Below the pieces are notes generated by a model. That model was not told the DNA's origin, did not search any database, and worked only from the letters and a program-made list of their open reading frames with translations. DNA of 64,000 nucleotides from Gigantopelta aegis (Eukaryota; Mollusca; Gastropoda; Neomphalida; Peltospiridae), in the NCBI RefSeq assembly GCF_016097555.1, contig NC_054708.1, positions 4,860,293-4,924,292 on the forward strand, read 5' to 3'. Positions within the stretch are counted from its first letter, which is position 1. Each line of letters begins with the position of its first letter. Below, one piece after another: positions 5,714 through 59,954 of this stretch. A program made the translations under genes and the position numbers.

Positions 5714-5881
5714 CTGGAACATGCTCTGGATGACTCCTCCCACAATGCACAGTCTGCGTCCCATGAAGAGGAGGAAAGGTGCAATCAGTTCTACGAAATG
5801 GTTGGTCAGAGTCTCAAACTTGTGGAAAACCTCCGGTTCCTGGTGCATGTAGTAACTCACTGGGTTTGGAACTGGTTGTGT
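5714..5881 (-). CDS. LMF1: LMF1-like exon 6
   Basis: 168 nt, 56 codons, phase 0: TQPVPNPVSYYMHQEPEVFH, KFETLTNHFVELIAPFLLFM, GRRLCIVGGVIQSMFQ. It holds a lumenal stretch and a membrane helix followed by GRR. Acceptor is TTTTCAG. The donor is CCAG|GTCAGG. The 77-bp minisatellite of the downstream intron starts at this donor and each unit repeats a close version of CCAG-GTCAG. Confidence 0.92.
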
Positions 5882-6062
5882 CTGAAAATATATATATATC
5901 AAATTTGATTTACACTTAGGCCTTGCTTAAAAGCATTAAGAAAAGAAACAATTGTGTAAAGGGGATGTCACACAAGCAAACATTGTTTACTGCATGTAGC
6001 TTATGTTGAACAATTAGTTTTTTCTCTGTCGATATTTAGGAGAAACAAAAAACTGGACAGAG

Positions 6063-6425
6063 AACACAAGGCCATAGCTAGCAGAAATTAATGAATGAAT
6101 GAATGACTGGTTAAGGACACCCCAGCACGAAACCATAGCTAGCAGAAATGAATGAATGAATGAATGACTGGTTAACGACACCCCAGCACGAAACCATAGC
6201 TAGCAGAAATGAATGAATGAATGACTGGTTAACGACACCCCAGCACGAAACCATAGCTAGCAGAAATGAATGAATGAATGACTGGTTAACGACACCCCAG
6301 CACGAAACCATAGCTAGCAGAAATGAATGAATGAATGACTGGTTAACGACACCCCAGCACGAAACCATAGCTAGCAGAAATGAATGAATGAATGACTGGT
6401 TAACGACACCCCAGCACGAAACAAT
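6063..6425. repeat. ~57-bp satellite derived from a LINE tail, 6 units
   Basis: Units contain (GAAT)n, GACTGGTTAACGACACCCCA, GCACGAAACCATAGCTAGCA. The segment AACGACACCCCAGCACGAAA next to (GAAT)n is the reverse complement of the LINE 3' tail seen at 42246-42306. It lies in LMF1 intron 5. Confidence 0.85.
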
Positions 6426-7260
6426 CGTAAACAGTGCTTTAGATCTCACTCATTTAACACAACAGTTTTTGTTCTTTTCTGAGCACTACAAGGTATTTTT
6501 AGTGCAGTGATGTTAGTAACAGTTGGTAAATAGATGTACATTTTCAGAAATGCATTTCAAGTTATTTTAATCTAACACAGCTTAACAGTCCATTGATTTA
6601 GAGGTGAAATGTTTTGAGGATAGAATGTTTGTACTTAATTTGAGCTTGCTTATTTTGATCACACCCTTTATCGCCTCAGCCTTGGTGCAATCTAAAGTCC
6701 TCAAGCTAGTCTAATCACACTGCTGGATGGAACGGAAACTAGCCCAAAACACACACTACAGGGGTGATACTTCAACAAAGCACATCTCAGACAGGCTATC
6801 TATGATTCACCTGCATTCTCCTATTCCACTAGTTTAGATTTCTGTCATTTATAATAATATAAGCAAATATTTTATGCATATCATTCATTCTCATCAATGT
6901 TGTATATTTCTGAAAAACAATTGCATCTATTATACAGTGAAGGAAAGGTATACATGGTTAACAACACCTCAACATGTTTTAGGATGGCTATTCAAAATAA
7001 GTAATTATCCAATTGCCTGACACATGAAATCTACTTGAATAAGCAAAATGTACCTCAATTAACGGTTATTTGGCAGAAAAATTAAAATCTCTAAAGCAGT
7101 ACCATAATTTCAAAACATGACCACTAGAATGAAGTAAACAAAGAGCTTACATGGACAAGTGAAGATATTGGTGGACAAGCCGATTTCTAGATGTTCTTTC
7201 CGGTGGACTAGTGAAAAATTCTGCTTACTACCTTCACTGCAATTTAGTGTCTTCACATAT
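6426..7260. other. LMF1 intron 5, no recognised feature
   Basis: AT-rich unique-looking sequence. No exon, RNA gene or repeat recognised. Confidence 0.5.
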
Positions 7261-8579
7261 GGGACATTCTGTGTCAAATCACACAAAAAAGAGAAGAATT
7301 TTTAACCTCACCCCCTCAGATTTGTCTGGAATTTTGTTTCTATGGTGGTTTTGGCTGAAAAAGCTTAATTTTCAAAGATCAGCTCAATCGGACCAGCGGT
7401 TTGAGTCCTACAACCCGCCCATTTTGGCAAAAGTCACCAAAATTTGGTGGGGGTCCCTATATTTGAACGTCCATAAATAAGTAACCACTGGTCTAATCTT
7501 GATGGAAATGGCATCTCTTGAATGGGAATTGCCCAAGGATTCCAAATCTTTTGATGTAAGTTAAAGTCTGATGACCTTTTGACCATCACTTTGACCTTGT
7601 TGCCCTCATGACCTTGAAATAAAAATTGGTCAGAATTATAGTCAAACATGTTTCCTACAAAATATAACAGAACTAGAGGTGTAATATTCCTCTATAGTCC
7701 ACAAAAGTCAATCAAAAACCCTTTTCCAAGCAATTTAACTTCAATTTAGTTAGTACCCTGTGAAGGATAATTCCCACCGACTATGAGTAGACATTGCATG
7801 TTCTTGAAATTTGGCACACACATACTACTGACCATAATGAACAATAATTAATGGAAATTAAAACAGTTGACGGTCTCCAATTTTTGTAGAAGCCATGCCC
7901 ATATTGACGATTTATGTAAAATTTGTCAATATAGCAAATATTGGAATGTTCTAAGTATATACCACAAACCTCAACTATAGATGATATATACCATAATTAC
8001 AAAATGTAAGCCCCTAACTGATCTGTTTCCATGTGTTATAATGAATGCATTCATTCTCTGGAAACCTATAATCCATAGATACTGTTCTATGCTTTAGTAC
8101 ATATAAAGTAACGTTAAGTTAACACCAGGTGTGAACCCCAAACAACCACATGTTCATCAAGTTAAGACAATGGGAAAAGTTCTGGGGTGTTTTTATTTCA
8201 AATTCACAACTTTCTGAGGCTGCTTCCGAAAATGTAAGTGTACATATATTATTCTAAAACACTTCCGATACTTTAGATTGTAACTTATACAATAAATCAA
8301 ACATTGGTGTACTGTAATTAATTAAAACATGTTCAAGTTTGTTTGTGTCCTGTCATAGATAGACTTGATACATGTAGTCTATATAGTAAGCCAAGTGTTT
8401 GGAATCCACCCGCCCAAGTTTCGTGACTTTTGCCAAAATGGGCGAGCTGTAGCACCCAAACCGCTGGTCCGATTGAGCTCATCTTTAAAAATTAAGCATT
8501 TTCAGCCAAAATCTCTCTAGAAAACAAATTTCAACCAAATCAGAGTTAAACCCATTGGGTGATTTGACTCGGAATGACC
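7261..8579. mobile_element. ~1.3-kb element with ~180-bp inverted ends
   Basis: The left arm (7261-7465, TGTGTCAAATCAC .. CGGACCAGCGGTTTGAG .. CCATTTTGGCAAAAGTCAC) recurs as its reverse complement at 8398-8579. The arms are about 80% alike by eye. The interior has no transposase frame that I recognise, so it is probably non-autonomous. Confidence 0.65.
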
Positions 8580-8590
8580 TATTGTAATTT

Positions 8591-8800
8591 TATCACCGCT
8601 TCTACCCAATAGCAGCAAGAACTATTTTATATGCACTTTCACAAACACAGGATAGCATATATCATGGTGTTTGATGTATGAGTCGCAGAGACTCTGTATG
8701 GAACAGAACAAAAACCTGACAAGACCTCTAAGGACAATCGATCCTATTACATATTACACCTCAGATAAGCTCTCTACCTCTACCACTGCACTACACCCTG
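8591..8800 (-). mobile_element. Degenerate tRNA-SINE copy
   Basis: Shares the SINE body (CAGCAAG..TTTTATATGCACTTTC, ACAGGATAGCATAT) but is heavily mutated. It sits just upstream of LMF1 exon 5 on the plus coordinate. Confidence 0.5.
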
Positions 8801-8904
8801 ACCATATATTATCCAGAGTTGTTTATAGCTACAAGCATCAGATAAAAGTTACAAATGGCTAACCTCTCTGAACTTTGAAAGCCGACATATCCTAAGTTAG
8901 TTAC

Positions 8905-8970
8905 CTCATAGTGGTAATTCATGCAAGTCAAATCTCGCCAACATTTGTCTCCCCTTATCTTTATCAGTCC
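8905..8970 (-). CDS. LMF1: LMF1-like exon 5
   Basis: 66 nt, 22 codons, phase 0 on both sides: GLIKIRGDKCWRDLTCMNYH then YE. Acceptor is TGTTACAG and donor is GTAACT. Both cysteines of the conserved CWRDLTCM motif are present. The exon is short but certain because its residues bridge exons 4 and 6 exactly as in LMF proteins. Confidence 0.92.
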
Positions 8971-9078
8971 CTGTAACACAGAAAACATGTTAATATCAAA
9001 TAAATGTAAATTATCTATGTATTCAAAGACATCAGTAGATTAAAAAAAATTAATTAGTTATACACTACTGATGTAATT

Positions 9079-9370
9079 ATAGAGCAATACAGCACATTAA
9101 TTTACTATCATCGGCTATTGGATGTCAAACATTTGGTAATTCTGACATATAGTTTTATACAGGAAACCTGTTACATCTTTCCATTCATAGCAAGGCATCT
9201 TTTATATGCACCATCCCATAAACAGGATAGCACATATCACGACTTTTGATATACGAGTCATGGTGTACTGGCTGGAATGAGAAATAGATCAATGGGCCCA
9301 GTGATGGGTAACGATTCTAGATTGATCGCGTGTCAAGCGAGTGCTTTACCAGTGGGCTACATCCCGCCCC
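9079..9370 (-). mobile_element. tRNA-derived SINE, near full length
   Basis: Reverse-oriented copy. Tail side GGCTATTGGATGTCAAACAT, body CTTTTATATGCACCATCCCA, head GCTTTACCAGTGGGCTACAT then CCCGCCCC. It lies in LMF1 intron 4. Confidence 0.8.
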
Positions 9371-10743
9371 AGGTCCAAAATGGATGCCTCAATGTAGGGC
9401 AATTCTATCACAATACATACACGCTGTTAAGTCAATGATCCCCATTTAAAAAACATACCGCTTTTGTTCTTCATCAAATACAGTTTGAGCTACTACAGAT
9501 ATGAGGATGACCAGAAACACATTGGGTTTGCTAAAAATTGATAAATTAAGCAACACTTACGTAGTATATTATATATGAAAACAGCTGTAGTTGCTAAAAA
9601 TGTTTTACACTGTCTAATGATTAGGGTCAGTGCCATTAAGTATCATGGAACATATTGTATTGCAACTTACCCATGTCATCACACCTTCTGGGTTCACCCT
9701 GTCTATAATCACATTAGCCAATTGCTAATATTTAAAAACAAAATGGCTACAACATTTAGTGTTAGAATACCAAAATTTTCTTTAAATTAGCTTTTTAAAA
9801 ATAATTTTAAAGGAAATCAGTCCATGGGTTTTGAAAATTATAGGCGAGTAGGAAATTGCACACCTCAATATGCTAAGGCGAGTGAAAAATCACTTTCCAA
9901 AATAAACAAAATAGGCAGTGTAGCTCCGATTGGATTTTGACTGGTACGTCTACAAAATTGTCTATTAAACCAGTATTTCCCGACTTGTTCAACAAAGAGA
10001 AATACCAGTTTAACGACTGCATGGAAACCACTGCCATGTTTTTAATTTTTATTGTTTTAATAAAAGGACCTGCCTATCAGCTAAATGAGCTATGAAAACT
10101 GTTGATTTTTGTAAACTGTGGAAATAAATATACCCATCTATTTTACGTGCGCCGTTTGTTGAGTGTGACGTGCGCTGCTTTTCACACTTGTCAGATTGAA
10201 ATTATGTGCGCTATACGAGCGCGATCGCATCTGCACACCTTAAAAAGCAAGGTCTGGGAAATATTCCACATATCTGAAAATTGGCTAAAACAAAATGATT
10301 TCCACTGTGAGCCTTGCACCTTGTGTTCTGTTTCAAAGCAGAATGGCCGTTTTGTTTGAAAGTAGGCAAATATGTTCAGAGAAAAAATTGTCTCCGAAAC
10401 AAAATGTAATTAATTTATAACGCAAGTCAGAACATTTTACTGTAACAATTAGCTGGTGAAAGTGTCACCACACATTATTTTGATACATTCGTATATCAGG
10501 TATGTGACTGAAACATTTCTAAAAAGAGATCAAAATGATACATGCGTGCCGAAGGCACGTAATCGAGTGCAGAATGCAAGGAAAATGAATGAAAGGAAAA
10601 CATTTTTAAAAGCGGAATTCTACCAATCAGTGGAAGAATCACATGCCTGGTATATGTGGCATACATGTACACATGTAAATGCTTCTGCCATTATTCTAGA
10701 CAATTTTTTGTTATGATTCTGCAATGACTACAAAACTATAGAT
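9371..10743. other. LMF1 intron 4, mostly featureless
   Basis: 9842-9892 (TTGCACACCTCAATATGC, AAGGCGAGTGAAAAATC) matches the short repeats at 33378-33485, so it is a dispersed repeat fragment. Nothing else recognised. Confidence 0.5.
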
Positions 10744-10918
10744 GTGACCACAAAAACTACATTTACAGTACCCAACATTATTCTAAAAATATGCCATCGA
10801 TATGATGACAAAAACTACACTTACTGCACCTAACATTATTCTAAAAATAAGCCATCGATATGACCACAAAAACTACACTTACTGCACCCAACATTATTCT
10901 AAAAATAAGCCATCGATA
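10744..10918. repeat. 58-59-bp triplication of exon 4 end plus donor
   Basis: Three tandem units (about 10744-10801, 10802-10859, 10860-10918). The rightmost contains the true exon 4 end and GCA|GTAAGT donor. The middle unit keeps an intact GTAAGT and the leftmost reads GTAAAT. Using the middle donor would add intronic sequence containing a stop. Confidence 0.9.
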
Positions 10919-11031
10919 TCCCCAGATGACGACTCGAGATGTTGGAGTGTGTTTTGGAAGAACTGAAACGTTCAACACTGGACAGAGAAAAGTTGCCAAA
11001 AAGCCAGTTTCCAGAAGCTGCGATTCCCATC
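10883..11031 (-). CDS. LMF1: LMF1-like exon 4
   Basis: 149 nt, acceptor AATTCAG, donor GCA|GTAAGT. It encodes GWESQLLETGFLATFLCPVL, then PKHTPTSRVVIWGYRWLIFR and IMLGA, the most conserved core of the LMF family. The 3' end of this exon plus its donor is tandemly duplicated twice more in the downstream intron (10744-10859). Confidence 0.92.
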
Positions 11032-11852: not shown

Positions 11853-11863
11853 CAAATGAATAC
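11853..11863 (-). CDS. LMF1: LMF1-like exon 3: 11-nt microexon
   Basis: Minus-strand reading: a TTTTTTGCAG acceptor, then GTATTCATTTG, then a GTGAGTAC donor. Exon 2 ends in phase 2 and exon 4 begins GA in phase 1, so exons 2 and 4 cannot be joined directly in frame. Exactly 3n+2 bases are needed. This 11-mer gives W-Y-S-F-G-W, and WYSFGWESQLLETG is the conserved LMF sequence at this place. I found it by looking for the missing residues. The match of sequence, phase and both splice sites makes chance unlikely. Transcript data would confirm it. Confidence 0.85.
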
Positions 11864-11942
11864 CTGCAAAAAATAAGAGAGAAGCATGATAAAGTTCCAC
11901 ACTTACAATCAAACCATTTCATGTAAAACATATCTGAGAACC

Positions 11943-12197
11943 CAAACTGTAATGCCACCTAATAATAAACATGAATACATGCTTACAGACTGGTCATTAT
12001 TAGCACTTATAGAATGGGATTTATTCAAAACTGTAATGCCACCTAATAATAAACATGAATACATGCTTACAGACTGGTCATTATTAGCACTTATAGAATG
12101 GGATTTATTCAAAACTGTAATGCCACCTAATAATAAACATGAATACATGCTTACAGACTGGTCATTATTAGCACTTATAGAATGGGATTTATTCAAA
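11943..12197. repeat. 84-bp tandem repeat, 3 near-perfect units
   Basis: Unit includes AACTGTAATGCCACCTAATA and TTACAGACTGGTCATTATTA. Being 28 codons long without stops, it leaves open frames on both strands. Intronic (LMF1 intron 2), not coding. Confidence 0.92.
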
Positions 12198-12503
12198 TGA
12201 ACTTTGCCAGTTTGCCATATTCCAAGAAATCCTAAACTGTTGGAAACTAAATACTATAATGGGTTATTGACAATTATCAACATTATATCAAGCATACAAA
12301 TCTTATGCTGGATGAGTAGAGCTTTAATAAAAAATAAAAAAACACATTTAGGAGAGAGAAGGGGTTAGCAAAACAAAATATGTTTTGTACACTGGTGAAA
12401 ATACCTATAATAGTAAAAAGTCCCAAAAATTATTTAATTTATATTATTATATACATATTCCTTATACATATATGTAAGTATAAACAGTTATTTTTCTCCA
12501 CAA

Positions 12504-12654: not shown

Positions 12655-12676
12655 GCCGCAGACTCCAGCAACTCAC

Positions 12677-15377: not shown

Positions 15378-16914
15378 CTACTCAAAAGAATTTAAGGGTC
15401 AGACGATATTTTCGGCATTATTTTCTGAATGTCAATTATATTAGCTAGACCATAATGTCACGCATGGTATTGTTCCATTTTGACGAAAGTGGGTCTAAGC
15501 AACCCATAAATGAATTAAAATCCACTGTCATTGACACTGTCGACTAGTTCTAATGGCGAAAACATGCTTACATTTGCACGTAAATTAGGGCGAAAGCGAA
15601 AGGTCTGCTAAGTGCCCATAACTTGCTTTTTCACAAAGCGCTTCATTTGCACACTTTGCACATGTATTCCATGTTCCCAATGCTGAATTTCCGTATAATT
15701 GGAGCTTGCGTTCATGTACGGTGCACACTCAAAATTCGACAATGGTACGACTTCAACTGACTATCGAAGATCGAGGAAGGGCTATTGCTTGGCTTCAGGA
15801 TGGCAATACGCAAAAAAATGTTGCTCTGGGACTTGGTGTCCACGTTCGGGAAGACCCCGAAGCACTACAAATAGAGAGGACCGCTACATCACCAATATGG
15901 CTCTACGTCAACGCACAACCACTGCACGCCGATTACGTGACAATCTGCGGTCTGCGACTGGAACTCGAGTGTCTGATCAAACCATACGCAATCGTCTGAG
16001 AGCCAATAATCTACGCTGCCATCGCCAGGCTGTTCGACCACCACTCCTACCACGTCACAGAACGGCCAGACGTCACTGGTGCACGCTTCATCTGCGGTGG
16101 CAACGTGTTCAGTGGGGTTGAGTGATGTTCACTGATGAGTCCAGGTTTAGTCTCCAGTTCAACGACAGTCGGGTTCGTGTCTACAGACGTCCTGGGGAGC
16201 GCTTCGCTGACGTTAACGTTAGACAACGTCACCGGTTCGGTGGTGGCAGCGTCATGGTGTGGGGCGGCATCTCTATCCACCACAGGACCCCCCTCTATGT
16301 GGTGGATGGCAATCTGAATGGAATCCGCTATCTGAATGAGATTATCCGGCCGTTGGTTCTCCCAGGCCTTCAGCAGATTGGCGGCGGGGCAGTTCTGCAG
16401 GATGACAATGCCAGACCCCACCGCGCCAGGGTGGTAACGGACTTTCTCAGACAACAAGGTATTGCCAGGATGGATTGGCCAGCATATTCGCCTGACTTGG
16501 CCTCAATAGAGCACGCCTAGGACGAATTAGGCAGGAGAGTTCGGGATAACCATGCCCCTCCGGCCAACCTTCATGATCTGGGTCAACTTCTTATGGCAGA
16601 GTGGCAGGCCATTCCCCAAGAGTTCTTCAGACGTCTGATCAACAGCATGAGGCAACGATGTGTCGAGTGTATTCGCGCCAGGGGTGGATTCACACACTAT
16701 TAAACGAATGTTCTAATGTGTAAAATCCATGTTTGACAACCTTGAACTTTGACAGCATGTCATGTGACTTTCTTGTATACAGTGACGTTTATTTGTGTTT
16801 TTTTGTAAATATGGAACAATAAATAAAAAAATTGGTGTAGTTTACATCATCAATCTAATACACTCTGAAACTTATTTGGTTATAAATTTTTGACCCTTAA
16901 ATTCTTTTGAGTAG
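15378..16914 (+). mobile_element. Tc1/mariner-type DNA transposon, inactivated
   Basis: 1537 bp bounded by inverted repeats CTACTCAAAAGAATTTAAGG-GTCA and flanked by TA. It carries a Tc1-like transposase reading 15740-16703 with SGRPRSTTNREDRYI, FTDESRF (first catalytic D), QDDNARPH (second D) and WPAYSPDLASIEHA (third motif). Lesions: the start region is in another frame, with the helix-turn-helix part apparently shortened near 15840. There is an in-frame TGA at 16119-16121 and a TAG at 16518-16520 where a Trp codon is expected. Few lesions suggest fairly recent death. It lies in LMF1 intron 1, sense plus. Confidence 0.9.
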
Positions 16915-18574: not shown

Positions 18575-19563
18575 TGTCCGGTGTATCGGCGCACCTAAGC
18601 TTTCAAGGACCAGTTTCTATGTGAACATTGTGAAATATTTAATAAAATGCGTCTCTCACCAATGAAGAAGTGCATAATCTGAAATACACTACAAACTGTT
18701 TTATGTCTGTAGTAAATAAACATTTTAAAATGGTGCATAAATATAGGCACCCCCTTGTATCCAAAACGATTTGCATGTCCGGTGATTCGGCGCAGTAGAT
18801 GTAGATCGTTGACCCCGCTATTTATAAACCGCCCATGACCTCACTTTTAGCCTATAAACGCTACACTATTGTGCCAGAATTATTTTAGTACTTTTTTGTT
18901 TTGTCTTGTTAAAAATATTACTATGAAAATGAACGATCACATATGACCCCATCTCATGATCAGTTTCGGCATCGTTTTCTTGAGTGGCACAGTACTGCAG
19001 ATGCATACATGTTCATTGTCATGCATGGCTAAGATGCCTACATGGATTTTATTTTTCTCGGGTAGATTGTGCACACACGTGGATCTTATTTCGCTTTTAT
19101 TTTTATAACAATGTGACAATTGTGAAATGGAATGACCGTCAATTAAGGTGTAAAATTTTCGTTTTGTTTGCATTTGCCTGTGTTTTCTTTTTCGGTTTAA
19201 ATAAAAAAATAACCCAACAAAAATAATTACATTTATACTGTTGACTATAATTTTTTAAATGCGGGAAAGGTGTTTTTAGACTGGTTTTAACATTCTTAAT
19301 ATCAATAAGGATGACCTACTTCGCGTTTGTAAACACGAAAACAGGTGAATGATTTATTTTGAAATTATTATATAATTATTGATAATTCTATAAAAAAAAA
19401 TTAACTGCACCCTTAAAAATAAATATGTTGATACTTGATTAACCATTGAAAAAGGAATTGAACTTTAATTCGTTAAAAACTCCGACAACATGACAACTTC
19501 CTAAGCATACTCATGCAAAATACCAAGTGCGCCGAATCACCGGACGCGCCGATACACCGGACA
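18575..19563. mobile_element. TIR element copy 2 (~989 bp), ends intact
   Basis: Begins TGTCCGGTGTATCGGCGC and ends with its exact reverse complement, GCGCCGATACACCGGACA. A second internal GTGATTCGGCGCAGTAG motif recurs near both ends. No transposase recognised, superfamily unassigned. The right end lies 9 bp from the target duplication of the Mutator-like element. Confidence 0.8.
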
Positions 19564-19581
19564 CGGTTGTATGTCAAGGCT

Positions 19582-20535
19582 TAGCCCGAGTACTCTGACT
19601 GTAAGAGAGCTAGACGGACATTTGGACATAAACACGCTCTCATTACAGTCAGAGACCAACCTATGTCTTTTTTTGGCAATTCCTGACTACCAAACGGTAG
19701 GCAACGAGTCCCGCTCTAATACCACAACAATCCTATGTTTGACGTCAAATACCTTTACATCAATAATTTTCGAGTTAAGTGATAAAAAAAAATCCACATA
19801 TTAATCACTAATACACATACTACAGAAAAAAACCCGACAGCACCCACATTCAGCTACGCTTCGTGACACTCCATCGCAACAATTGCAAAGCTCGGCGATC
19901 TATTTCGAGACGTAGACCACGTGATCCCGCCTTGTGCAGCAGTTACAGGGGCCGTCTCATATCAAGCGAAGTTACAACATGGAAGAGTTGGCTAATGCCG
20001 TTTTGGATGAATTTGGATTTCATTACGTCATTAAACCAAAACAATTACACATTACTGATTCCATTTTGAATTTGAAGGATACATTTGGGGTGTTATCGAC
20101 AGGATACGGCAAAAGTATGTGCTACGTACTGCCTCCTCTTATGAGACGACCCCTGTAACTGCTGCACAAGGCGGAATCGCCCAGTGCGCGATCACGTGGT
20201 CTACGTCTCGAAATAGATCGTCGAGCTTTGCAATTGTTGCGACGGAGTGTCACGAAGCGTAGCTGAATGTGGATGCTGTCGGGTTTCTTTCTGTAGTATG
20301 TGTATTAGTGATTAATATGTGGATTTTTTTTTATCACTTAACTCGAAAATGATTGATGTAAAGGTATTTGACGTCAAACATAGGATTGTTGTGGTATTAG
20401 AGCGGGACTCGTTGCCTACCGTTTGGTAGTCAGGAATTGCCAAAAAAAGACATAGGTTGGTCTCTGACTGTAATGAGAGCGTGTTTATGTCCAAATGTCC
20501 GTCTAGCTCTCTTGCAGTCAGAGTACTCGGGCTAG
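19582..20535. mobile_element. Mutator-like foldback element with captured helicase fragment
   Basis: 954 bp, starting TAGCCCGAGTACTCTGACTG and ending with the reverse complement. Long inverted arms at 19582-19961 and 20140-20535 (about 380-396 bp, high identity). It is flanked by a perfect 9-bp direct repeat GTCAAGGCT (19573-19581 and 20536-20544), the length typical of Mutator-like elements. The 178-bp centre is not transposon-like (see the helicase fragment). The small loss of identity between arms suggests a recent insertion. It lies in LMF1 intron 1. Confidence 0.88.
19979..20143 (+). pseudogene. RecQ-like helicase N-terminal fragment inside the element
   Basis: The reading from ATG 19979, MEELANAVLDEFGFHYVIKP, KQLHITDSILNLKDTFGVLS, TGYGKSMCYVLPPL, resembles the start of a RecQ-family helicase: an F-x-x-x-x-x-KPKQ motif followed by Walker A (TGYGKS) and Y-LPPL. 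It ends abruptly at the right arm, so it is a captured fragment, not a working gene. A relation to a transposon-borne helicase is possible. Confidence 0.7.
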
Positions 20536-20625
20536 TCAAGGCTATAAAGTGGTCTTCCTATAAAATACCATACATATATGATATTAACAATGCCAAAGCC
20601 AATGATATTTTTAACAAATTCTTAC

Positions 20626-34539: not shown

Positions 34540-37500
34540 TTTAGTTAATACAGATATGTATAGCAAGGTGCAGTCTTTAAGAGTAAAGCCATTGTCTTAT
34601 CTTTCCAATCACTACCTAATTGACTTAATCATAAATATTGCTAATAAAGCTGCACAAGACAGTTCTAAAAATAAGCAATATCTTAACACTAAAATCCCAA
34701 AGTTGGGAGATGCCTCAGTCAGTTAATGATAATCCTTGTGGGAAAATATCAACTTTAGGTACAGCCAAATGTAGATCTGATACAAATATTACTTCATTGA
34801 AAACAAAGAGCCCAACATTTTCAGTAAGTAAAAGCAAGTTTAATTTCCCCACAAAAAGTTTCAATATTGCCAGTTGGAACATTCAACATATACTGCCAAA
34901 ACTAGATGAAATCTCATTGATAATGGGTAAAAACCCTTCTTTACATATATTAGGATTATGTGAAACCTTTCTAAGCCAGGAAATCCCGGATACTATAATT
35001 AATATTGATCAATGCAACCTGGAACGAAAAGACAGAAGGGACAAACAGGGTGGAGGACTGGCTGTATATATTAGAAACTCCTTATCCTATAAAAGACGAA
35101 ATGATATCGAAGACTTGACTACAGAAACTATATGGCTACAAATTAATTTACAACATGCTAAAAACATCTTGTTATGTTTTGTCTACAAACCACCTAACTC
35201 ACATGTGTCCTGGATAGATATGATTGACACTCAGCTGGAAAAGGCTTTAAATGAAAACCTTGATATAGTTGTTATGGGAGACTTTAATATCGATTTCATA
35301 AATGGTTGCTCTAATACCAAGTGGAGCAATTTAGTGAAGTCATATGAATTGACTCAAATAGGGGATAAGCCTACCAGAATAACCGAAAATTCTTCGACTA
35401 TCATAGATCACATTTATTGTACAAACACTAGTATGATTACTCAAGTATGTATACCATGTTTTACTATTAGCGACCATTATCCTGTCAGTTAGTCTTAATC
35501 AATATACAAACAATTCTGATATAAATATGATAAATAACACTCATAAAACTATATCATATAGGTGTTTTAAAACATTTTGCACTGAAGACTTTCTTTTAGA
35601 CATTAACAATTCCAATATAAACAATAATTTTTTCATGTAATGATGTTAATATGGCCTTATTACTTTGGCACAACACACTAATTAATATTCTGAATAAACA
35701 TGCACCTTTGAAAAAAAAACGAGTTAGACGATTTGAACAACCAAAATGGTACAGTGATAAGATAAAATACTCAAGAATGCAACGTGATCATTTTCATAAA
35801 ATAAAAGACTGGACCAGCTACAAGCTGTGGCGCAATAAAACATTAAATTTCATAGCTGAGGCCAAAAAGGATTTATTTCAAGATGCTGTTCAGAATAACA
35901 AACCTTCAAGTTTCTTATGGAATCATTTCAAAACATTATCTGGAAAACGATCAGGGTTACTTATGCCTTCAGAGTTAAAATAAATGACAGTTTGGTTACT
36001 AATGCAAGTGACATTCTACAAACTTTAAATGAGCATTTCATTAACATCTCACAGACTATTGACAAAACCTTTTACTCCCGAAAATCACACTATACTTCAG
36101 GATTATCTTAAAAACAAAATAGTAAATAACTTGCCATTTAGAATACCACATATCTGTCTACACGATGTGGTAAATTATATAACAAAATTAGACTCATCAA
36201 AGGCAACCGGTTTAGACGGCATTGGGCCAGGAATATTAAAGCTTAGTAATCACACACTAGCTCCACTCATCGTACACATAATCAACTTAAGTATTGCTGA
36301 TGGAACCTTCCCATGTGCATTACAAATTGCTCCACTCCAATATATAAAGGGGGTGATAAAGACAAAGCAGAGAATTACAGACCTATCTCGATTTTACCAA
36401 CTATAACAAAAATATTTGAGAGGCATATCTCAAATCATCTATATAAATACTTGACTAATATAACCTCCTACATGATGCTCAGTCTGGTTTCCGTGAAAAA
36501 CACTCATGTCAGACTGCATTGGTACACCTAATTGATCAGTGGATCTTGTCTATCGATAATGATAACATGGTAGGAATCATTTTCCTAGATTTAAAGAAAG
36601 CCTTGATCTTGTAGATCATTCTATACTTCTTTATAAACTGAAGCTTCTAAATTTTTCTGATCAAAGTCTCAAATGGTTTACTTCCTACTACAAAATCGTC
36701 AGCAGATTGAAAAAGTTGGGAACTTACAATCCTCATCACAGCTGACCGGTGTCCCCCAAGGCTCAATTCTCGGTCCACTACTATTTATTATCTACATAAA
36801 TGATATGCCCTTGTATGCCAAACACTGCTTTATTGACATGTATGCCGATGATGCAACCATGCACACATATGGTAGTGACCTAACAGAACTAGTTAAATTT
36901 GCAGGTGGATTTATTGGTCGTTCAAAAGTGGTGCACAAATAACAATATGGCTCTTAATCTTCAGAAAACAACTTGTATGTTAGTAAGTACAACATACAAA
37001 ATAGCCAGGCAGCACTCAATACAAATTACACTAAACAATGAAAAACTTAATGCAGTAAAATCGCAAAAGGTACTTGGTGTTTATATAAATGAGTCACTGA
37101 CCTGGACAGTACACATTAGAAAAGTGATTTCAAAATTGGCCTCGACTATCTCACACTCAGGAGACTTAATATATACTTAAATCAAGCTGCCAAAACAGTT
37201 TTCTATAATGCATACGTTGTTCCAATTCTCGACTTTGCTGTCACTGTTTGGGGACACTGTGCTAAGGAACAAGTGGTTCAAATTCTAAAAATGCAAAAAC
37301 GTGCAATGAGAATACTTTTAAACAAACCATTAATAACTCCGTCTAAAGACATGTTCAGGGAACTAAATATTTTACCTTTCCCTGACAGAATAAAATACCA
37401 CATCGGCATAATGGTATATAAAGCACTAAATGGCTTCTCCCCAGAATACATTACATCTCTCCTTACCCCAATATCTGAAATCTGTAATTATAACCTAAGA

Positions 37501-37909
37501 TCCTCTAATAAAAACAAACTTCAGCTACCAAGGCCTCATACTGAACTACATAAAAAATCCTTCAGTTACTCAGGTGTTCAGATATGGAATACAATACCCT
37601 TTGATATTAGACACCTGAAGTAAGTTGCGAACTTTAAATCCAGCCTGAAACAATATCTTATGGATGTTTATTTGGCTGATTAGTTTTTATTCTATATAAT
37701 AGTTATGTTTTGAGACATTAGTGTCAATATTACACAACTAATAGATGTCTGTTAAATGTAAAATTTCTCTAGTCAATATGTATGTATGCATTATTATAAT
37801 AGTATAGTACTTAGTATACATGTATTTTCTTTTTTCAGTGTTTCAATGTATTGCTGAGGGCCAAGTGGAAGATTAGCTTGTGCTAAACCTGTCACCCTCA
37901 TTAAATAAA

Positions 37910-42752: not shown

Positions 42753-42947
42753 TACACGCTGATTCTGTCAATACTCTTCTTCCTCGAGGTGGCCCTCATT
42801 ATCCTGGTGTTTGTTTATTACTACGTGCCAGACGTGAGGAAGTCGCTGAAGCTCTACCCGGAGGACCTGCTGCAGACTGCAATAGAAAAATACGAGGACG
42901 AAACAGCAGGGGACTTGAAAAATCTTTTAGATACCATTCAGAAAACA
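42753..42947 (+). CDS. TspanC8-A exon 3
   Basis: 195 nt, 65 codons, phase 0. It encodes TM3 (YTLILSILFFLEVALIILVF then VYYYV) and the start of the large loop (KLYPEDLLQTAIEKYEDET, LKNLLDTIQKT). Acceptor TTTCAG, donor ACA|GTAAGT. The last ~45 nt of this exon with its donor are repeated several times in the downstream intron (42963-43120 and weaker copies to about 43480). Confidence 0.93.
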
Positions 42948-43480
42948 GTAAGTACTAAATAAAACAGCAGGGGACTCGAAAACCTTTTAGATACCATCCA
43001 GAAAACAGTAAGTAATGAAATAAAACAGCAGGGGACTTGAAAAATCTTTTAGATACCATTCAAAAAACAATAAGTGATGAAATAAAACAGCTGGGGACCT
43101 GAAAAATCTTTTAATTAATTAATATGTAGTGACTAATAAAATATGACTGTACATGGCCGTAGCTAGGATTTTTTGTGGGGGGGGGGGGGGGGGGGGGCAA
43201 CTGAGTAGTTAATAAGTCTAAAACTCCTTAAACAGTTAAGAAGAGAAGTTTCTTTAAGTTTTTTTTCGGGGGGGGGCACCTGCCACCCCCCCCCCCCCAC
43301 CCCACCCCCTGCTGTAGTGGACTTGAAATATATATATTATAAATACAATTACAAACCAGTAAGCAGAGAAATAAAACTCAACAGGACATGAAAAGTTGTT
43401 TAGATAATATTCAGAAAATAATAGGTACATAAACAAAACTGCTGTCCACCCAGAATTTGAAAACCCAGAAAGTAATACAA
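42903..43480. repeat. Tandem copies of TspanC8-A exon 3 end plus donor
   Basis: The native unit (42903-42962) contains GACTTGAAAAATCTTTTAGA, TACCATTCAGAAAACA|GTAAG. Copies follow at 42963-43023 (donor GTAAGT intact), 43024-43085 (donor changed to ATAAGT) and 43086-43119 (partial). Weaker copies lie around 43318-43480 beyond an inserted G-rich TIR fragment. Confidence 0.88.
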
Positions 43481-46686: not shown

Positions 46687-46803
46687 CCCAATGAAGTGTC
46701 GGACAAGATCTACACTAACGGTTGTCTACGCGGCCTGCAGGTGTGGCTGGACAGTAACATCTGGACGTTTGGTGGAATTATACTGGGAATTTTACTGCCC
46801 CAG
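46687..46803 (+). CDS. TspanC8-A exon 6
   Basis: 117 nt, 39 codons, phase 0: PNEVSDKIYTNGCLRGLQVW then LDSNIWTFGGIILGILLPQ. Acceptor CATTGCAG, donor CAG|GTGAGT. It holds the eighth loop cysteine (NGC) and the first half of TM4. The exon's last ~40 nt are duplicated just downstream (46825-46884), where the copied donor reads CAG|CTGAGT and is no longer functional. Confidence 0.92.
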
Positions 46804-46824
46804 GTGAGTGACTGCTAAACCTTG

Positions 46825-47005
46825 GACAGTAACATTTGGACGTTTAGAAGAATTATACTGGGAATTTTACTGCTGTTTCAGCTGAGTCACTGCTAAAACC
46901 TGGACCTTTTAGAAATGTTTCGTTTTTAACCCCAGCACATTTGCGACTTTTATATGGATGTTTTGTTTTCGACATTTAGAAGAATTTTGCTGCCAAATAA
47001 TTACT
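46825..47005. repeat. Duplicated TspanC8-A exon 6 end
   Basis: 46825-46884 copies the exon (GGACAGTAACATTTGGACGT, GAATTATACTGGGAATTTTA), ending TTTCAG|CTGAGT where the true donor is CAG|GTGAGT. A third, weaker copy lies near 46956-47000. Confidence 0.85.
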
Positions 47006-49960: not shown

Positions 49961-49964
49961 TTAA

Positions 49965-52388: not shown

Positions 52389-52431
52389 GGACGGGACCCA
52401 GCACAGTCGTAAAGTGTTCGCCTGATGCAGC
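52389..52431 (+). mobile_element. SINE head fragment
   Basis: GGACGGGACCCAGCACAGTC-GTAAAGTGTTCGCCTGATGC, cut off by a TA run. Confidence 0.55.
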
Positions 52432-54878: not shown

Positions 54879-55007
54879 TTAGTATCGCTCTGTGTTCTGG
54901 TCTCGTTGTCGCTCCTGCCTCAGCTGCCGCTCCTCATTGAGTCGCTGTTTGTGCAGCTGAACCTTCACCGAGTCGATCATGTTCCTGGCCATGCAGATGA
55001 AGATCAC
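54879..55007 (-). CDS. TspanC8-B exon 7 (terminal)
   Basis: 42 codons plus TAA: VIFICMARNMIDSVKVQLHK, QRLNEERQLRQERQRDQNTE, RY. It holds the end of TM4 and a long charged tail rich in Arg, Gln and Glu, probably helical. Acceptor TTTACAG. A minus-strand SINE tail fragment lies about 40-60 bp upstream of the acceptor. Confidence 0.9.
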   Translation of the reverse strand: MIFICMARNMIDSVKVQLHKQRLNEERQLRQERQRDQNTERY

Positions 55008-55042
55008 CTGTAAACAACCACCGCAAACTGAACTTCAAACAC

Positions 55043-55215
55043 AAACTTTGTTTTCTTTAACGACACCACTAATTCTGAAACAAATATAGCTAAGCGGGTT
55101 TGCTATAGAAGAATACGAGTCAAAATTACCACATGTTTGACATCCAATAGATGATTATTAATTAATATATCAATGTGCTCCAGTTGTGTCGTTAAACGAA
55201 ACAAAAGTTTAATTT
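55043..55215. mobile_element. SINE tail pieces in opposite orientation
   Basis: 55043-55068 (TTTGTTTTCTTTAACGACAC) is a minus-strand tail. 55080-55215 is a plus-strand 3' half (GTTTGACATCCAATAGATGA, GTTGTGTCGTTAAACGAAAC). It lies in TspanC8-B intron 6, next to the exon 7 acceptor. Confidence 0.7.
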
Positions 55216-55446
55216 AAACTTTGAAGGGTTTACAGAGATGAGTAGTGGCGTGTCTCTGTGTGATTTTACTAGTATATTATTAGTAACCTATTTTCGTTCG
55301 CGTATAAAATTTAGGGCATCATTTACGCGGGTTATGCAATCAGAAATAGGGTAGATCAAACTGCCAGGCGTAACTCATGCATAGGTTTTTGGCAAGTGGT
55401 CCATTCTTAGAGGGCTGTGGAAAATTAGTTATAAACAGGTTACATG

Positions 55447-55637
55447 TTAGATATTTTTACCTGAACTACAAGTATTCCTATGAGAACACCCCCAATCATC
55501 ACACGGATTACATGCTAGAATATTATCTAAACCGTTCTTACCTGAGATACAAACATTTCTACGTGAATACCCCAATCATTAGCTATATAAACGGGTTACA
55601 TGCTAGGATACAGTATAGATATCTAAACAGATCTTAC
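55447..55637. repeat. Two extra copies of TspanC8-B exon 6 end plus donor
   Basis: Minus-strand copies at 55533-55585 (CTCAG|GTAAGA kept) and 55447-55503 (TTCAG|GTAAAA), each preceded by a version of GATTGGGGGTATTCTTATAG. Spacing is about 85-95 bp, with shared GGTTACATGCTAG linkers. Confidence 0.88.
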
Positions 55638-55766
55638 CTGAGGTATGAGTATTCCTATAAGAATACCCCCAATCATCAAGGAATGGGCGTTAATCCAGTC
55701 TCCTAGAGCTTTGAGGCAGCCTTTAGTGTATATCCGAGACACGTCCTGGGGCACGACGAAACCACC
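55638..55766 (-). CDS. TspanC8-B exon 6
   Basis: 43 codons, phase 0: GGFVVPQDVSRIYTKGCLKA, LGDWINAHSLMIGGILIGIL, IPQ. It holds the last loop cysteine (KGC) and half of TM4. Acceptor TTTTACAG, donor CAG|GTAAGA. Two further copies of the exon end plus donor lie downstream in the intron (55533-55585 and 55447-55503). Confidence 0.92.
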
Positions 55767-55868
55767 CTGTAAAACACGCCCAACACTGATGATGTTGTTA
55801 CTACATATAAATGAAATACACCTATATTTCATCAAAATAGTCAGGGGAAGTAACTCAGTAATAGGCAG

Positions 55869-56206
55869 GAAGGAAATGTTTTATTTAACGACGCACTCGA
55901 CAGATTTTATTTACGGTTATATGGCGTCAGACATATGGTTATGGACTACACACACACACACACACACACATATATAGAGGAAACCTGTTGTTGCCGCTTC
56001 GTGGGCTACTCTTTTCGATTAGCAGCAAGGGATTTTTTATATGTACCATCCCACAGACAGGATAACACATACCACGGCCTTTCATATACCAGTCGTAGTG
56101 CACTGACTGGAGCGAAAAATAGCCCAATGGGCTCACTGACGGGGATCGATCCTATAACGACCGTGCATCAAGCGAACGCTTTACCACTGGGCTACGTTCC
56201 GCCCCT
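55869..56206 (-). mobile_element. tRNA-SINE subfamily 2, full length, minus
   Basis: TTTATTTAACGACGCACTCG, ATGGCGTCAGACATATGGTT, CTTCGTGGGCTACTCTTTTC, GGGGATCGATCC, GCTTTACCACTGGGCTACGT, CCGCCCC. A (CA)n run interrupts it. Confidence 0.88.
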
Positions 56207-56599
56207 AACCCAGTAATAGAGTTCTCGCCTCAGATGTGATGGGTTAAGCAATCAACCCTCCGCCCCACCCACTTGGAAGATCTATTCGGTTGTGTCCTTT
56301 TTCTACGAGTATAACTTCGTTTTAATTCTGAACGACAAAACCGATATCCGCGATCATACTGCACAATGCAGAGTCGAATAGGTATTTGGCAAAACAGTGG
56401 TGGTTCCATGAATCTCTATGTAGGAATAGCCTCATGTATAGGAGGACAGCCACTCCAGAGGAGATCCTTTTCAGAACAATACGTCCTTTCTGATCCTTTC
56501 AAAAGAGGACTGCCAGACATGTTTACTAAATTTGTCTGTGCTGCTTATACCAAATTAAGGTTCAAGTACGCCGTCGGGGTCCTGCGTCCTGAAACATTT
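56207..56599. other. TspanC8-B intron 5, unassigned
   Basis: A plus-strand open stretch of 82 codons (56366-56614: MQSRIGIWQNSGGSMNLYVG..., LSDPFKRGLPDMFTKFVCAA) precedes the 43-bp array. I do not recognise it. It could be an exon or retrocopy fragment antisense to TspanC8-B. Confidence 0.3.
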
Positions 56600-56815
56600 T
56601 TACTGATACTCTAAGGACGATGTAAGTACATATGAATTTTTTTTACTGATACTCTAAGGACGATGTAAGTACATATGAAACATTTTTACTGATACTCTAA
56701 GGACGATGTAAGTACATATGAAACATGTTTACTGATACTCTAAGGACGATGTAAGTACATATGAAATATGTTTACTGATACTCTAAGGACGATGTAAGTA
56801 CATATGAAATATGTT
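56600..56815. repeat. 43-bp array carrying GTAAGT, 5 units
   Basis: Unit TTTTACTGATACTCTAAGGA, CGATGTAAGTACATATGAAA. Each unit holds a consensus-like plus-strand donor GAT|GTAAGT. Confidence 0.92.
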
Positions 56816-57578
56816 CTGCTACAAATTTGAAAGAGTAGCCTCTGTTTGATTTCTGGTCCATCACTAAGTATTTTTGCGTGAAAACCAAACCGATGAATTG
56901 GCATGTTACTCTGTAAAGATTAACGTTAAATGTGGGCTTTTTAAAATTTCAATGTAAATAATAATAAAAAAGTTTCTTTACTAATGTTCATCAAATTGTT
57001 GTTGGTGTTTGTCTTCTTTGTTTTGTTGTTGTTGTTGCTTTTTTTTTGTGGGTTTATTAACTGAACAGCCAATGTGAAGTACCGGCAATTTTGTCTATAA
57101 TCGCTATGTAGGCATACGGCATTATCAATTACTGTAGGTGAAACTGCACACCTTGGCTGTTCAAGAATGTTGTCTTCACCCCGTATATTATAAATGAACT
57201 TCAATCTATATAATTTGATGCTCATTTATAAAGAAACTGCATTGCCATATATTACTTTTGCCATGAATGGTATGGATTTAAAACTTAATTTTATAGTATG
57301 TAGTTATATGCCAATTCATCGGTTCCCTTTTGCCACAAACGGACTGTACTACAAACTTCAAATTTACATCTTTGACTCCTAATAGCCAGTTATTAAAGAA
57401 ATATGTTTTTAGATATCAAATTCTACATCATTCTGAATATTTATTTTGTGAGACAGTTTATGTAATGATTTATGTATTAGGTGAATACATAATGCAATCC
57501 CGAATATTGACGATGGTCGTATCACCCGGTATAATACATTTACAAATAAACATTTAACTGCTGAAAGCCAGTCATTAA

Positions 57579-57957
57579 AGGGACATTCCTGAATTTGCTG
57601 CAATATTTAAGATGTTATCGACTAACAGAGATTTTTAACGATTGTAATTACTTTTTTTTTCTGCATAAAATATTAGTGGCTATATATTAAACGTGTTTCT
57701 GGTCGTTCTAATATTTGTACTAGGTTAAATTTCATTTTATTTCCTAAAAAAGAAAAACATATTTTCGTACGTACGAAATTATTTTAAGACAAACTCCAGT
57801 TTGGGCTTGTTACATATATTAAGACGACCAGAAACACGTGGAATATACAGACACTGATATTTTGAACAAGAAAATATATTTAATATAGAAGTTTAATCGT
57901 AGAAATATTTTATTAGTCGGAAACATCTTACAATGCAACAAACTCAGGAATGTCCCT
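57579..57957. mobile_element. TTAA-flanked palindromic MITE, 379 bp
   Basis: Begins AGGGACATTCCTGAATTTGC and ends CAAACTCAGGAATGTCCCT, flanked by TTAA (57575-57578 and 57958-57961). The internal halves are also inverted (CGTGTTTCTGGTCGT .. ACGACCAGAAACACG). Confidence 0.88.
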
Positions 57958-58082
57958 TTAAAGAAGCATTATCAAACTCTACATCATTCTCCAGATTTAT
58001 TTTCTGAGGCATAAATTATGTAATGACATGGTATTATTGGGTGATCTAACACAGTTGATATTGTCGATGTTGAGTAGTCTGT

Positions 58083-58320
58083 AATGCTGAACATTAACAC
58101 TGATCGAATCACACTGTGACTGTCTAATACATTAACACTGATCGAATCACACTGTGACTGTCTAATACATTGACACTGATCGAATCACACTGTGACTGTC
58201 TAATATATTAACACTGATCGAATCACACTGTGACTGTCTAATACATTAACACAGATCGAATCACACTGTGACTGTCTAATACATTAACACTGATCGAATC
58301 ACACTGTGACTGTCTAATAC
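58083..58320. repeat. 38-bp array starting at TspanC8-B exon 5 donor, 6 units
   Basis: Unit ACATTAACACTGATCGAATC, ACACTGTGACTGTCTAAT. Read on the minus strand, the first unit begins four bases after the exon 5 splice site (AAG|GTAC-GTATTAGACAG). Confidence 0.93.
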
Positions 58321-58324
58321 GTAC

Positions 58325-58375
58325 CTTATCAATTTTGTTTATATGCGCTCCACATAGTATATTTGTCGTGTCACC
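58325..58375 (-). CDS. TspanC8-B exon 5 (51 nt)
   Basis: 17 codons, phase 0: GDTTNILCGAHINKIDK. Acceptor TTTTGTAG, donor AAG|GTACGT. Same length and ILCGA core as exon 5 of TspanC8-A. A 38-bp array starts four bases into the following intron. Confidence 0.9.
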
Positions 58376-59554
58376 CTACAAAACAACAAGACACACATCG
58401 ATAGAACGAAACATCTCGTAATTGAACATTTGTAACTAAGAACTGTATACACGGCAGCTATGCTCTAACCGTTGGTGTATGAGAAGGATATCTGAGCATT
58501 TCTCACTGTGATAAATGTCGGTTTTGTTGGTGTTGGGCTTTTCCCATTCTTTTCTGCAATATTCTTGTGATATGTTGTATTTTGAGGAGTGAGGTTATTG
58601 ACTGGAGTGAGTTAAATGTTTGTTGCTATATATTGTGGTTTTTGTTTTTGTTTTTGTTGTTGTTGTTGTTTTTTGTTGGGTTTTTTTTTTTTGGGGGGGG
58701 GGGGGGGGGGTGTTGGGGGTGTTTTTGTTTTGTTTATGGTTTTGGGGTTGTTGTTTTTTTCTCATTAACAAAATATACTTAGAAAATAATGTGTGCGATT
58801 ACTATATATAACATAAAAAAATAATGTGTGCAGGAATTTATGTACATACATTTGTGTCTAGACTGTGGCGAGCGCAGTTTCTTGGGAGCGTCGAGCCATA
58901 CCCCCATCGAAAATAAACCGTATTTAAAAAAAAAAATGCTTTGAGCAGGGGGAGGTTCGACCCCGAAGTAGACGCGCCTAGACATTCCCCCATCCACCTA
59001 CCTCCTACATAATAACACATAAAAATAAATGAAAAACACCCAAAAGTCAATGTATTGTATCGTCTATTTTAACGAGATGTATAATTATTATTATTTTTTT
59101 TTTTTTTTTGCATGAGCGGGAGTGCCATACGGAATTTATGATACGAGTTTGAAACTTGTTTTATTTTCCGAGCAAACGCGAGTGGTATAAAACAATTCCC
59201 AAACGGGTTTCATGAATTTCGTGTGACACTTTATGTTATACTATGTTTACTATCCACAAAGTGATTAATAAGAAACGTAAAATATCATTATAATCGCTTC
59301 ACAGTCAATGTTAATAACATTCAACGATGTCATTAACAATGTCGCGGAATTATTTCAATATCACAATCTGCGACTGTCGCAAGCTTGCATTTGCTATTGC
59401 TACTCACGACTTCAGAAGAGTTCCACAATAATTTTTAAAATATTGTTATGACGCATGTCATAAAGATAGCATGGAAAAATAGGATATGTATGTACCCGTT
59501 TATTGCAGACCATTTTCTTTATCCATATGTTTATCCAAGGGCTTTATAGCATAC
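58376..59554. other. TspanC8-B intron 4, spacer
   Basis: Long G and T runs at 58630-58760 create false open frames. 59495-59560 is an older copy of the exon 4 donor region (CCATTTTCTTTATCCATATG, TTTATCCAAGGGCTTTAT). Confidence 0.55.
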
Positions 59555-59790
59555 GAAAATACGATCTGTATGTAACGGGCTTTATTCTGCATACGAAAAT
59601 ACGATATGTATGTAACCGGCTTTATTCGGCATATGAAAATACGATCTGTATGTAACCGGCTTTATTCGGAAAACGAAAATACGATCTGTATGTAATCGGC
59701 TTTATTCGGCATACGAAAATACGATCTGTATGTAACCGGCTTTATTCGGCATACGAAAATACGATCTGTATGTAACCGTTTACTGGAGAC
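59555..59790. repeat. 40-bp array built on TspanC8-B exon 4 end, 6 units
   Basis: Unit (minus) GTTACATACAGATCGTATTT, TCGTATGCCGAATAAAGCCG. GCCGAATAAAGCC is the last 13 nt of exon 4 (R-I-K-P), and the following GTTAC takes the place of the GTGAG donor. Confidence 0.92.
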
Positions 59791-59819
59791 CATTTTTCTT
59801 TATTCATATGTTTACTCAC

Positions 59820-59954
59820 GGGCTTTATTCGGCAGCAGGATGGCGGGACGGAACAGCGCTCCGGGCTCGGGTTCGAGGCCGTGCAGTTGAAGTAGACGTT
59901 ATTATTCCAGTCCTTGTAGCCTTCGTTGTCGTTAGAAAGACCACAGCACTCCAT
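59820..59954 (-). CDS. TspanC8-B exon 4 (CCG motif)
   Basis: 45 codons, phase 0: [45 protein letters not shown]. Six loop cysteines and an NCT glycosylation sequon. Acceptor TAACACAG, donor CCC|GTGAGT. The internal methionine is not a start because the exon joins QTS in frame. The exon's 3' end (GCCGAATAAAGCC) is the core of the 40-bp array downstream at 59555-59790. Confidence 0.92.

Follow-up and report, generated by a model that had tools for sequence, protein, structure and literature searches.

The window, a stretch of 64,000 nucleotides from contig NC_054708.1 of Gigantopelta aegis, carries LMF1 and TspanC8-B on the minus strand and TspanC8-A on the plus strand. In it we tested 17 donors and 18 acceptors, and each of these 35 splice boundaries was located uniquely. 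The spliced LMF1 protein matches Pfam LMF1 (E-value 8e-68) over profile positions 1–161 of 163 (residues 105–264 of 275); the match runs approximately from the microexon to exon 7, with exon 2 outside the profile. The spliced TspanC8-A and TspanC8-B proteins match Pfam Tetraspanin, the two matches covering profile positions 14–220 and 14–219 of 225. Wrong exon models are ruled out by the unique placement of all 35 boundaries (35/35) together with these matches. The exons and repeats discussed below are as follows (TRF marks arrays called by that program).

10883..11031, minus strand: LMF1 exon 4 (splice model; donor, i.e. first intron base, at 10882)
10741..10919, minus strand: 58-bp array of 3.1 copies after LMF1 exon 4, with the last 37 nt of the exon and the donor (TRF)
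5714..5881, minus strand: LMF1 exon 6 (splice model; donor at 5713)
1981..5717, minus strand: 77-bp array of about 50 copies, from −4 inside LMF1 exon 6 (TRF)
508..1365, minus strand: 42-bp array of 20 copies on the acceptor side, without exon sequence, whose end lies 27 nt short of the acceptor of LMF1 exon 7 (exon start 481; TRF)
11944-12197, minus strand: array ending 80 nt upstream of the LMF1 exon 3 acceptor
42753..42947, plus strand: TspanC8-A exon 3 (splice model; donor at 42948)
42901..43113, plus strand: 62-bp array of 3.5 copies after TspanC8-A exon 3, with the last 47 nt of the exon and the donor (TRF)
46749..46901, plus strand: two tandem copies (one extra) at TspanC8-A exon 6, lag 75, with the last 55 nt of the exon and the intron start (donor at 46804)
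59549..59778, minus strand: 40-bp array of 5.8 copies after TspanC8-B exon 4 (donor at 59819; TRF)
58091..58320, minus strand: 38-bp array of 6.1 copies, intron only, from +4 of the TspanC8-B exon 5 donor (58324; TRF)
56590..56809, minus strand: 43-bp array of 5.1 copies in the middle of TspanC8-B intron 5 (TRF)
55457..55678, minus strand: original and two diverged tandem copies at TspanC8-B exon 6, lags 96 and 177, with the last ~41 nt of the exon and the donor (55637)
62507..63462, minus strand: 19/74-bp array that stops ~40–50 nt short of the acceptor of TspanC8-B exon 2 (exon start 62468; TRF)

An initial sequence-only reading had claimed tandem duplications on the downstream side of seven donors, and TRF, reading of the sequence, and alignment place them at 7 of the 17 donors tested. 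As it also stated, five contain real exon sequence (13–55 nt each) and two begin near the boundary, namely the arrays at LMF1 exon 6 (−4) and TspanC8-B exon 5 (+4). At the remaining 10 of the 17 donors, the alignment score for any downstream copy was at most 13. Copies aligned with identities of 53/54 at LMF1 exon 4, 63/68 at TspanC8-A exon 3, 66/78 at TspanC8-A exon 6, and 39/45 at TspanC8-B exon 6. The units after TspanC8-B exon 4 each hold approximately 13 nt of the exon end when the sequence is read directly, and automatic alignment found a farther copy only (24/28); a longer-period copy lies near 59547-59520, beyond the 40-bp array. The 43-bp array was rejected as a donor array, because it is situated mid-intron, between the end of exon 5 at 58325 and the start of exon 6 at 55766. 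The repeat units look unrelated from locus to locus.

A further claim was that several copies keep a good donor. In the array after LMF1 exon 6, donor scoring finds 33 GT sites whose scores lie no more than 2 bits from that of the true donor, 10 of them equal to or above it, and the TspanC8-B exon 6 copies carry GTAAG in one case and GTAAA in the other. The copied donor of TspanC8-A exon 6 reads CT instead of GT, the unit after TspanC8-B exon 4 retains GT yet makes a poor donor (GTTACA), and the array after TspanC8-B exon 5 contains no donor.

Judged by their head-to-tail copies and units of ~10–100+ bp, as called by TRF, these repeats are minisatellites, with only one extra copy at TspanC8-A exon 6. 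All seven introns terminate at an acceptor lying past the array. Intron gain by duplication is rejected, since the duplicates do not bound the introns. Tandem exon duplication of the kind that yields mutually exclusive exons does not apply either, as the copies in the window hold the 3' end of an exon only, or no exon at all. On the acceptor side, an ungapped search recovered exon-including copies at 0 of the 18 acceptors in the window, where arrays lie close upstream of three acceptors (those of LMF1 exon 7, TspanC8-B exon 2, and LMF1 exon 3).

The window, with 7 of 17 donors affected, is a locally extreme case that was chosen for being striking. The rates below come from a sample (not the whole genome) of 138 donors and 130 acceptors outside the window in the same genome, drawn only from exons that match Pfam Tetraspanin, Myosin_head, SNF, and Kinesin. 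Loci L001–L068 contributed 58 donors and 44 acceptors, L069–L129 (61 loci) 52 and 57, and L130–L143 (14 loci) 12 and 13; extra flank exons added 16 and 16, including the L048 donor, which entered the sample after its copies were seen. Intronless L001 and L002, near-identical copies L025 and L028, L037, and one extra L033 exon were left out, as were boundaries that were uncallable or too close to the end of a stretch. Boundaries were picked by hand from splice-site scores and knowledge of the proteins, and some are weak (e.g. the L038 acceptor); the scores derive from a general metazoan donor and acceptor weight matrix rather than one trained on this genome. Copies were looked for on the intron side only, and the flanks counted as intron may extend past the intron end. 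All P-values are uncorrected.

Exon-including copies were found at 13 of 138 donors and 6 of 130 acceptors (P = 0.16), and any copy within 60 nt at 24 of 138 and 11 of 130 (P = 0.045). An uncurated test restricted to exon sequence gave 11/138 donors versus 5/138 acceptors at score 20 (P = 0.20) and 11/138 versus 2/138 at score 25 (P = 0.019), with P-values from 0.019 to 0.34 depending on the threshold. Chance alone is rejected: shuffled-target controls yielded 0/138 at scores of at least 20 on either side, versus the 11 and 5 observed. Seven of the 13 exon-including donor cases (L013, L057, L062, L073, L122, L130, and L143) rest on or include pairs with 70–77 per cent identity, as expected if persistence matters.

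Acceptors, which had appeared by eye to be spared, are so within the window (for exon-including, ungapped copies) but not outside it. Exon-including acceptor copies were aligned for L057, L068, L112, L117, and L013; the copied AG is retained in L057, L068, and L117 and lost in L112 and L013. Donor-side copies outside the window were aligned for L011, L013, L014, L048, L057, L061, L062, L073, and L124, with the donor GT retained in the old copies of L057 and L062 and lost in that of L011. Three exons (L013, L057, and L143) are copied with exon sequence on both sides, and this suggests that the locus as a whole is prone to duplication, rather than that the donor carries a signal. Because acceptors are also duplicated (6/130, five of them aligned), a process acting on donors exclusively is excluded, whereas a donor-biased one is conceivable. 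The predicted donor excess, looked for here in the sample, has the expected direction, but it is small and borderline; at approximately two-fold over acceptors, it is suggestive, not established. Selective tolerance, which the sequence-only reading had offered as its second option, fits at least as well as a donor-biased process.

Tandem duplication is also common away from exons. Tandem duplications make up about a quarter of the intron sequence sampled. Coverage by tandem pairs is 19–28 per cent at 60–500 nt into the intron on either side and 20–26 per cent at 500–1400 nt, and in the sampled introns it does not peak at the donor. Proximity counts at donors (14/58) equal those at points 100–500 nt into the intron (12–16/58) and exceed those at 600–1000 nt (5–9/58), where partners may be missed beyond the end of the fetched sequence. 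Array edges are distributed differently: 17 fall within 60 nt of donors (15164 nt) versus 21 in the intron interior (49218 nt), a 2.6-fold difference (P = 0.0038) in bins that were partly post hoc, with small counts, and were re-tested with wider bins. At identities of at least 90 per cent, the counts are 7/16122 versus 6/55407 (4-fold; P = 0.014), and the excess persists on the intron side alone (8/7278 nt). Near acceptors, edges show a weak 2.3-fold excess over the intron interior (P = 0.07), and the edge densities of donors and acceptors do not differ significantly (P = 0.17). At six loci, the array start lies at +2, +3, +9, or +11 relative to the donor; at three loci, the array end comes to within 1, 5, or 9 nt of the acceptor. 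Start positions around donors are scattered from −107 to +58.

We consider it somewhat probable that minisatellites form throughout the genome and capture exon edges from either side, and that the copies persist by tolerance. Duplication units in the cases seen range from tens of bases to ~170 bp, and the duplications take in exon edges and splice sites at both exon ends, perhaps ~2 times as often at the downstream one. A boundary-crossing duplication would be tolerated because normal mRNA would still come from splicing at the outermost copy, which is the upstream one for donors and the downstream one for acceptors. Inner copies would end up inside the intron and drift, whereas the exon copy would be held constant by selection; exon-containing pairs should for that reason stay recognizable ~2 times as long as intron-intron pairs, and the apparent excess at exons would therefore be inflated. 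The approximately two-fold lower acceptor count may reflect the longer constrained zone there (branch point and pyrimidine tract) as well as the danger of splicing to a copy upstream of the true acceptor. One observation counts against this explanation: the excess of edges at donors, including at identities of at least 90 per cent, where persistence bias should be small, is greater than uniform duplication plus persistence predict.

That excess is what would be expected if exon–intron junctions at both ends were duplication hotspots, owing to a composition step, a nucleosome edge, or transcription-linked breaks rather than to the donor sequence as such. The edge enrichment at donors (P = 0.004 when rounded), its like direction at acceptors, the insignificant difference between the two, and the arrays that begin at +2 to +11 of donors or end within 9 nt of acceptors all agree with such hotspots. 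We nevertheless regard them as unlikely, given that proximity counts at donors are no higher than at 100–500 nt into introns, that the edge counts are small and their bins partly post hoc, and that arrays creeping along introns and halted at exons by selection would pile up likewise. Slightly more doubtful is a mutational process specific to the 5' splice site, such as template switching at transcription- or U1-linked breaks, which was the idea put forward initially. The proportion of affected donors in the window, the donor excess in the independent sample (P = 0.045, and P = 0.019 at score 25), and the high-identity donor edges argue for it, but acceptor copies of the same type exist, the other measures and thresholds give no significant donor–acceptor difference, and array starts converge on no single place. 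Selection for decoy-donor arrays, which might buffer U1 or control splicing or expression, is very improbable: the 33 near-equal decoys after LMF1 exon 6 and the GT kept in several old copies (e.g. L057 and L062) would suit it, but GT is lost in the TspanC8-A exon 6 and L011 copies, the motif is weakened at TspanC8-B exon 4, the units are apparently unrelated across loci, and the TspanC8-B exon 5 array lacks a donor.

The repeats resemble intronic minisatellites or VNTRs in their head-to-tail arrangement, unit length (tens of bases or more), copy number (2 to ~50), and wide occurrence in introns; they differ in that the coding exon end and splice site are often included (at the 13 donors and 6 acceptors above). 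In the AGGT-duplication model (PMC3443670), a new intron arises between duplicated AGGTs; there too a short tandem duplication within a gene carries splice-site sequence, but here the intron continues to an unrelated acceptor past the array and is only enlarged. In potato RdRp (PMC4974935), a duplication spanning the end of intron 1 and exon 2 copied splice signals over an existing intron–exon boundary, as here, yet it is a single case that produced a new intron, whereas we see many loci, both exon ends, and no sign of new introns. Novel Drosophila introns (PMC2891723) likewise involve regional tandem duplication with proto-splice sites, but of coding sequence, one copy of which was intronized, whereas the exon edges copied here lie in introns that already existed. 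The Caenorhabditis elegans minisatellite CeRep25B, found near alternative splicing (PMC4039745), shares the association with splicing regions but is one dispersed family, whereas each array here derives from its own locus. The excerpt of PMC12783039 describes minisatellites inside an earthworm intron and does not mention copying of its splice sites. Among titles and abstract openings, a scope outside which most subscription journals fall, we found no report of donor-anchored duplication.

It is conceivable, and we hold it only tentatively, that junctions, donors most of all, truly start tandem duplication in this lineage; donor-adjacent edges would then form at a rate several times that of introns, and the genome would hold a natural collection of introns in which 2 to 50 near-identical donors compete and splicing nevertheless stays correct. 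If a tandem copy of the exon end accompanies approximately one donor in ten, as in the sample, the genome offers a ready-made test of how the spliceosome selects one of several near-identical sites, the finding also bears on intron growth, and splicing-coupled breaks become testable as seeds of duplication. If the cause is only a high rate of tandem duplication combined with selective tolerance, these arrays would still call for caution in gene prediction and wherever duplication is claimed to have created an intron.

The window carries three genes, LMF1 (minus strand) and two tetraspanins (one on each strand), and their spliced models match the Pfam families LMF1 (E 8e-68) and Tetraspanin (E 2e-37 and 1e-34). 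For both tetraspanins we use the putative subfamily name TspanC8 from the sequence-only reading (TspanC8-A, plus strand; TspanC8-B, minus strand). The 17 donors and 18 acceptors of these genes were each placed by a unique sequence match. An 11-nt LMF1 microexon has the support of the reading frame and the Pfam match, and the array 80 nt upstream of its acceptor is probably very recent. These and three mobile-element-like stretches are as follows.

11853-11863, minus strand: LMF1 microexon, GTATTCATTTG, with consensus splice sites on either side
11944-12197, minus strand: array of 84 bp x3.0, copies 100% identical (TRF)
15699-16700, plus strand: broken frames; resembles, we presume, a Tc1/mariner-type transposase
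19505-20557: looks like an inverted-repeat element, its two ends encoding the same peptide stretches on opposite strands, with a helicase-like fragment in between
34635-37620, plus strand: broken reading frames; what we take to be a likeness to non-LTR retrotransposon reverse transcriptase (YADD-like motif)

The genome around the window comprises 1.149 Gb in 5216 contigs, 15 of them large; the Gigantopelta aegis (vent snail) assembly is given as 1.15 Gb with 15 pseudo-chromosomes (PMC7895826).

Tandem duplication is present at all seven donors for which it had been claimed (7/7: LMF1 exons 4 and 6, TspanC8-A exons 3 and 6, and TspanC8-B exons 4, 5, and 6), and the remaining 10 of the 17 donors gave alignment scores of at most 13 in the search for tandem copies. 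The strongest cases are the LMF1 exon 4 donor (58-bp unit, 53/54 identity over 37 nt of exon plus donor), the TspanC8-A exon 3 donor (63/68 identical), and the 3.7-kb LMF1 exon 6 array, which begins 4 nt before the exon boundary. This array holds 33 GT sites that come within 2 bits of the true donor's score, and 10 of the 33 equal or exceed it; the window-wide background is 2.7 sites/kb scoring at least 1.5 as donors. Because their periods differ (lag 75 in one versus lags 96 and 177 in the other), the duplications at the homologous exon 6 donors of the two tetraspanins look like separate events.

Tandem duplication has been described as a route to intron gain (PMC4974935; PMC2891723); the duplications here bound no new intron and therefore fall outside that class. 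They share the structure of minisatellites or shorter tandem duplications, but include exon edges. A literature search of partial coverage found no report of a genome-wide pattern of exon-edge tandem duplication.

Since the window itself prompted the idea of a donor preference, the test was run elsewhere in the same genome, on 138 donors and 130 acceptors of exon loci (L numbers) drawn from matches to four Pfam families. Tandem pairs that lie at most 60 nt from the boundary and whose partner is no farther than 400 nt away occur at 24/138 donors (17%, 95% CI 12-25%) versus 11/130 acceptors (8.5%, CI 4-15%; p=0.045). Copies holding at least 6 nt of exon occur at 13/138 donors (9.4%) versus 6/130 acceptors (4.6%; p=0.16); the L048 donor, exon-including by eye, is among the 24 and was left out of the 13 because its exon copies sit >400 nt away. 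An uncurated test on 138 loci per side took just 60 nt at the end (donors) or start (acceptors) of every matched coding stretch. It gave 12 donors versus 7 acceptors at score 18, 11 versus 5 at 20 and 22, 11 versus 2 at 25 (p=0.019), and 9 versus 1 at 30 (p=0.019), with at most one match in shuffled controls. A roughly two-fold donor bias is possible but unproven. The window is an extreme locus, since its 7/17 donors exceed the sample rate (p=0.047).

The proposal that acceptors are spared fails outside the window, given the six exon-including cases. In alignments, the acceptor and exon start are copied upstream with the copied AG intact at L057, L068, and L117 and with the AG lost at L112 and L013; L143 is the sixth. 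Arrays of ~1.4 kb also stop 5 nt (L020, 86-bp unit) and 9 nt (L038, 51-bp unit; acceptor call weak) from called acceptors. L013, L057, and L143 carry exon-including copies on both sides, and these three exons, against ~0.6 expected by rough arithmetic if sides were independent, suggest locus-wide duplication proneness. L048 and L062 (SNF family exon ends) have paralogous donors, EFFE|GTATG, with exon-including duplications of different period in both, which may reflect recurrence at a homologous site.

At 60-500 nt from an exon, on either side, tandem pairs make up 19-28% of the sampled flanks, and at 500-1400 nt 20-26%; their share falls to ~10% over the last 30 exon nt next to donors and to 4-6% over the first 30 next to acceptors. 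By a proximity measure, donors (14/58) are level with points 100-500 nt into the intron (12-16/58) and exceed points at 600-1000 nt (5-9/58), where some partners may be missed because they lie past the end of the fetched sequence. Acceptors (7/44) fall below points at 100-500 nt (9-11/44). These counts favour tolerance plus extra constraint at acceptors. Array edges are 2.6-fold denser within 60 nt of donors (17/15164 nt) than in intron interiors (21/49218 nt; p=0.0038), and 4-fold at identities of at least 90% (p=0.014); near acceptors the ratio is 2.3 (9/15028 versus 10/38509; p=0.074), and the comparison of donors with acceptors gives p=0.17. Because edge densities near boundaries exceed those of intron interiors, some boundary enrichment exists beyond what uniform duplication explains, and it is not clearly donor-specific.

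Tandem duplication is thus frequent in introns and takes in exon edges at either end of the exon; copies of these edges were sought on the intron side only. Pairs with a conserved exon copy should decay about half as fast as intron-intron pairs, which would inflate exon-including counts, but slower decay cannot account for array edges counted at donors in intron sequence alone (8/7278 nt). The leading explanation is ordinary minisatellite formation at a high rate, combined with selective tolerance. The outermost splice site would continue to yield normal mRNA: at donors the upstream copy, transcribed first and nearest the exon under exon definition, and at acceptors the downstream copy. Inner copies would drift afterwards; a good splice site is kept in some and lost in others. 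In in-vitro work with duplicated donors, the intron-proximal copy was often preferred. The L014 donor, with about eight 80-bp copies (98-99% identical) of the exon end and a strong donor, GTGAGT, offers a clean test case for choice among splice sites. If the intron-proximal preference holds, the tolerance of donor copies here would be a real question for RNA data.
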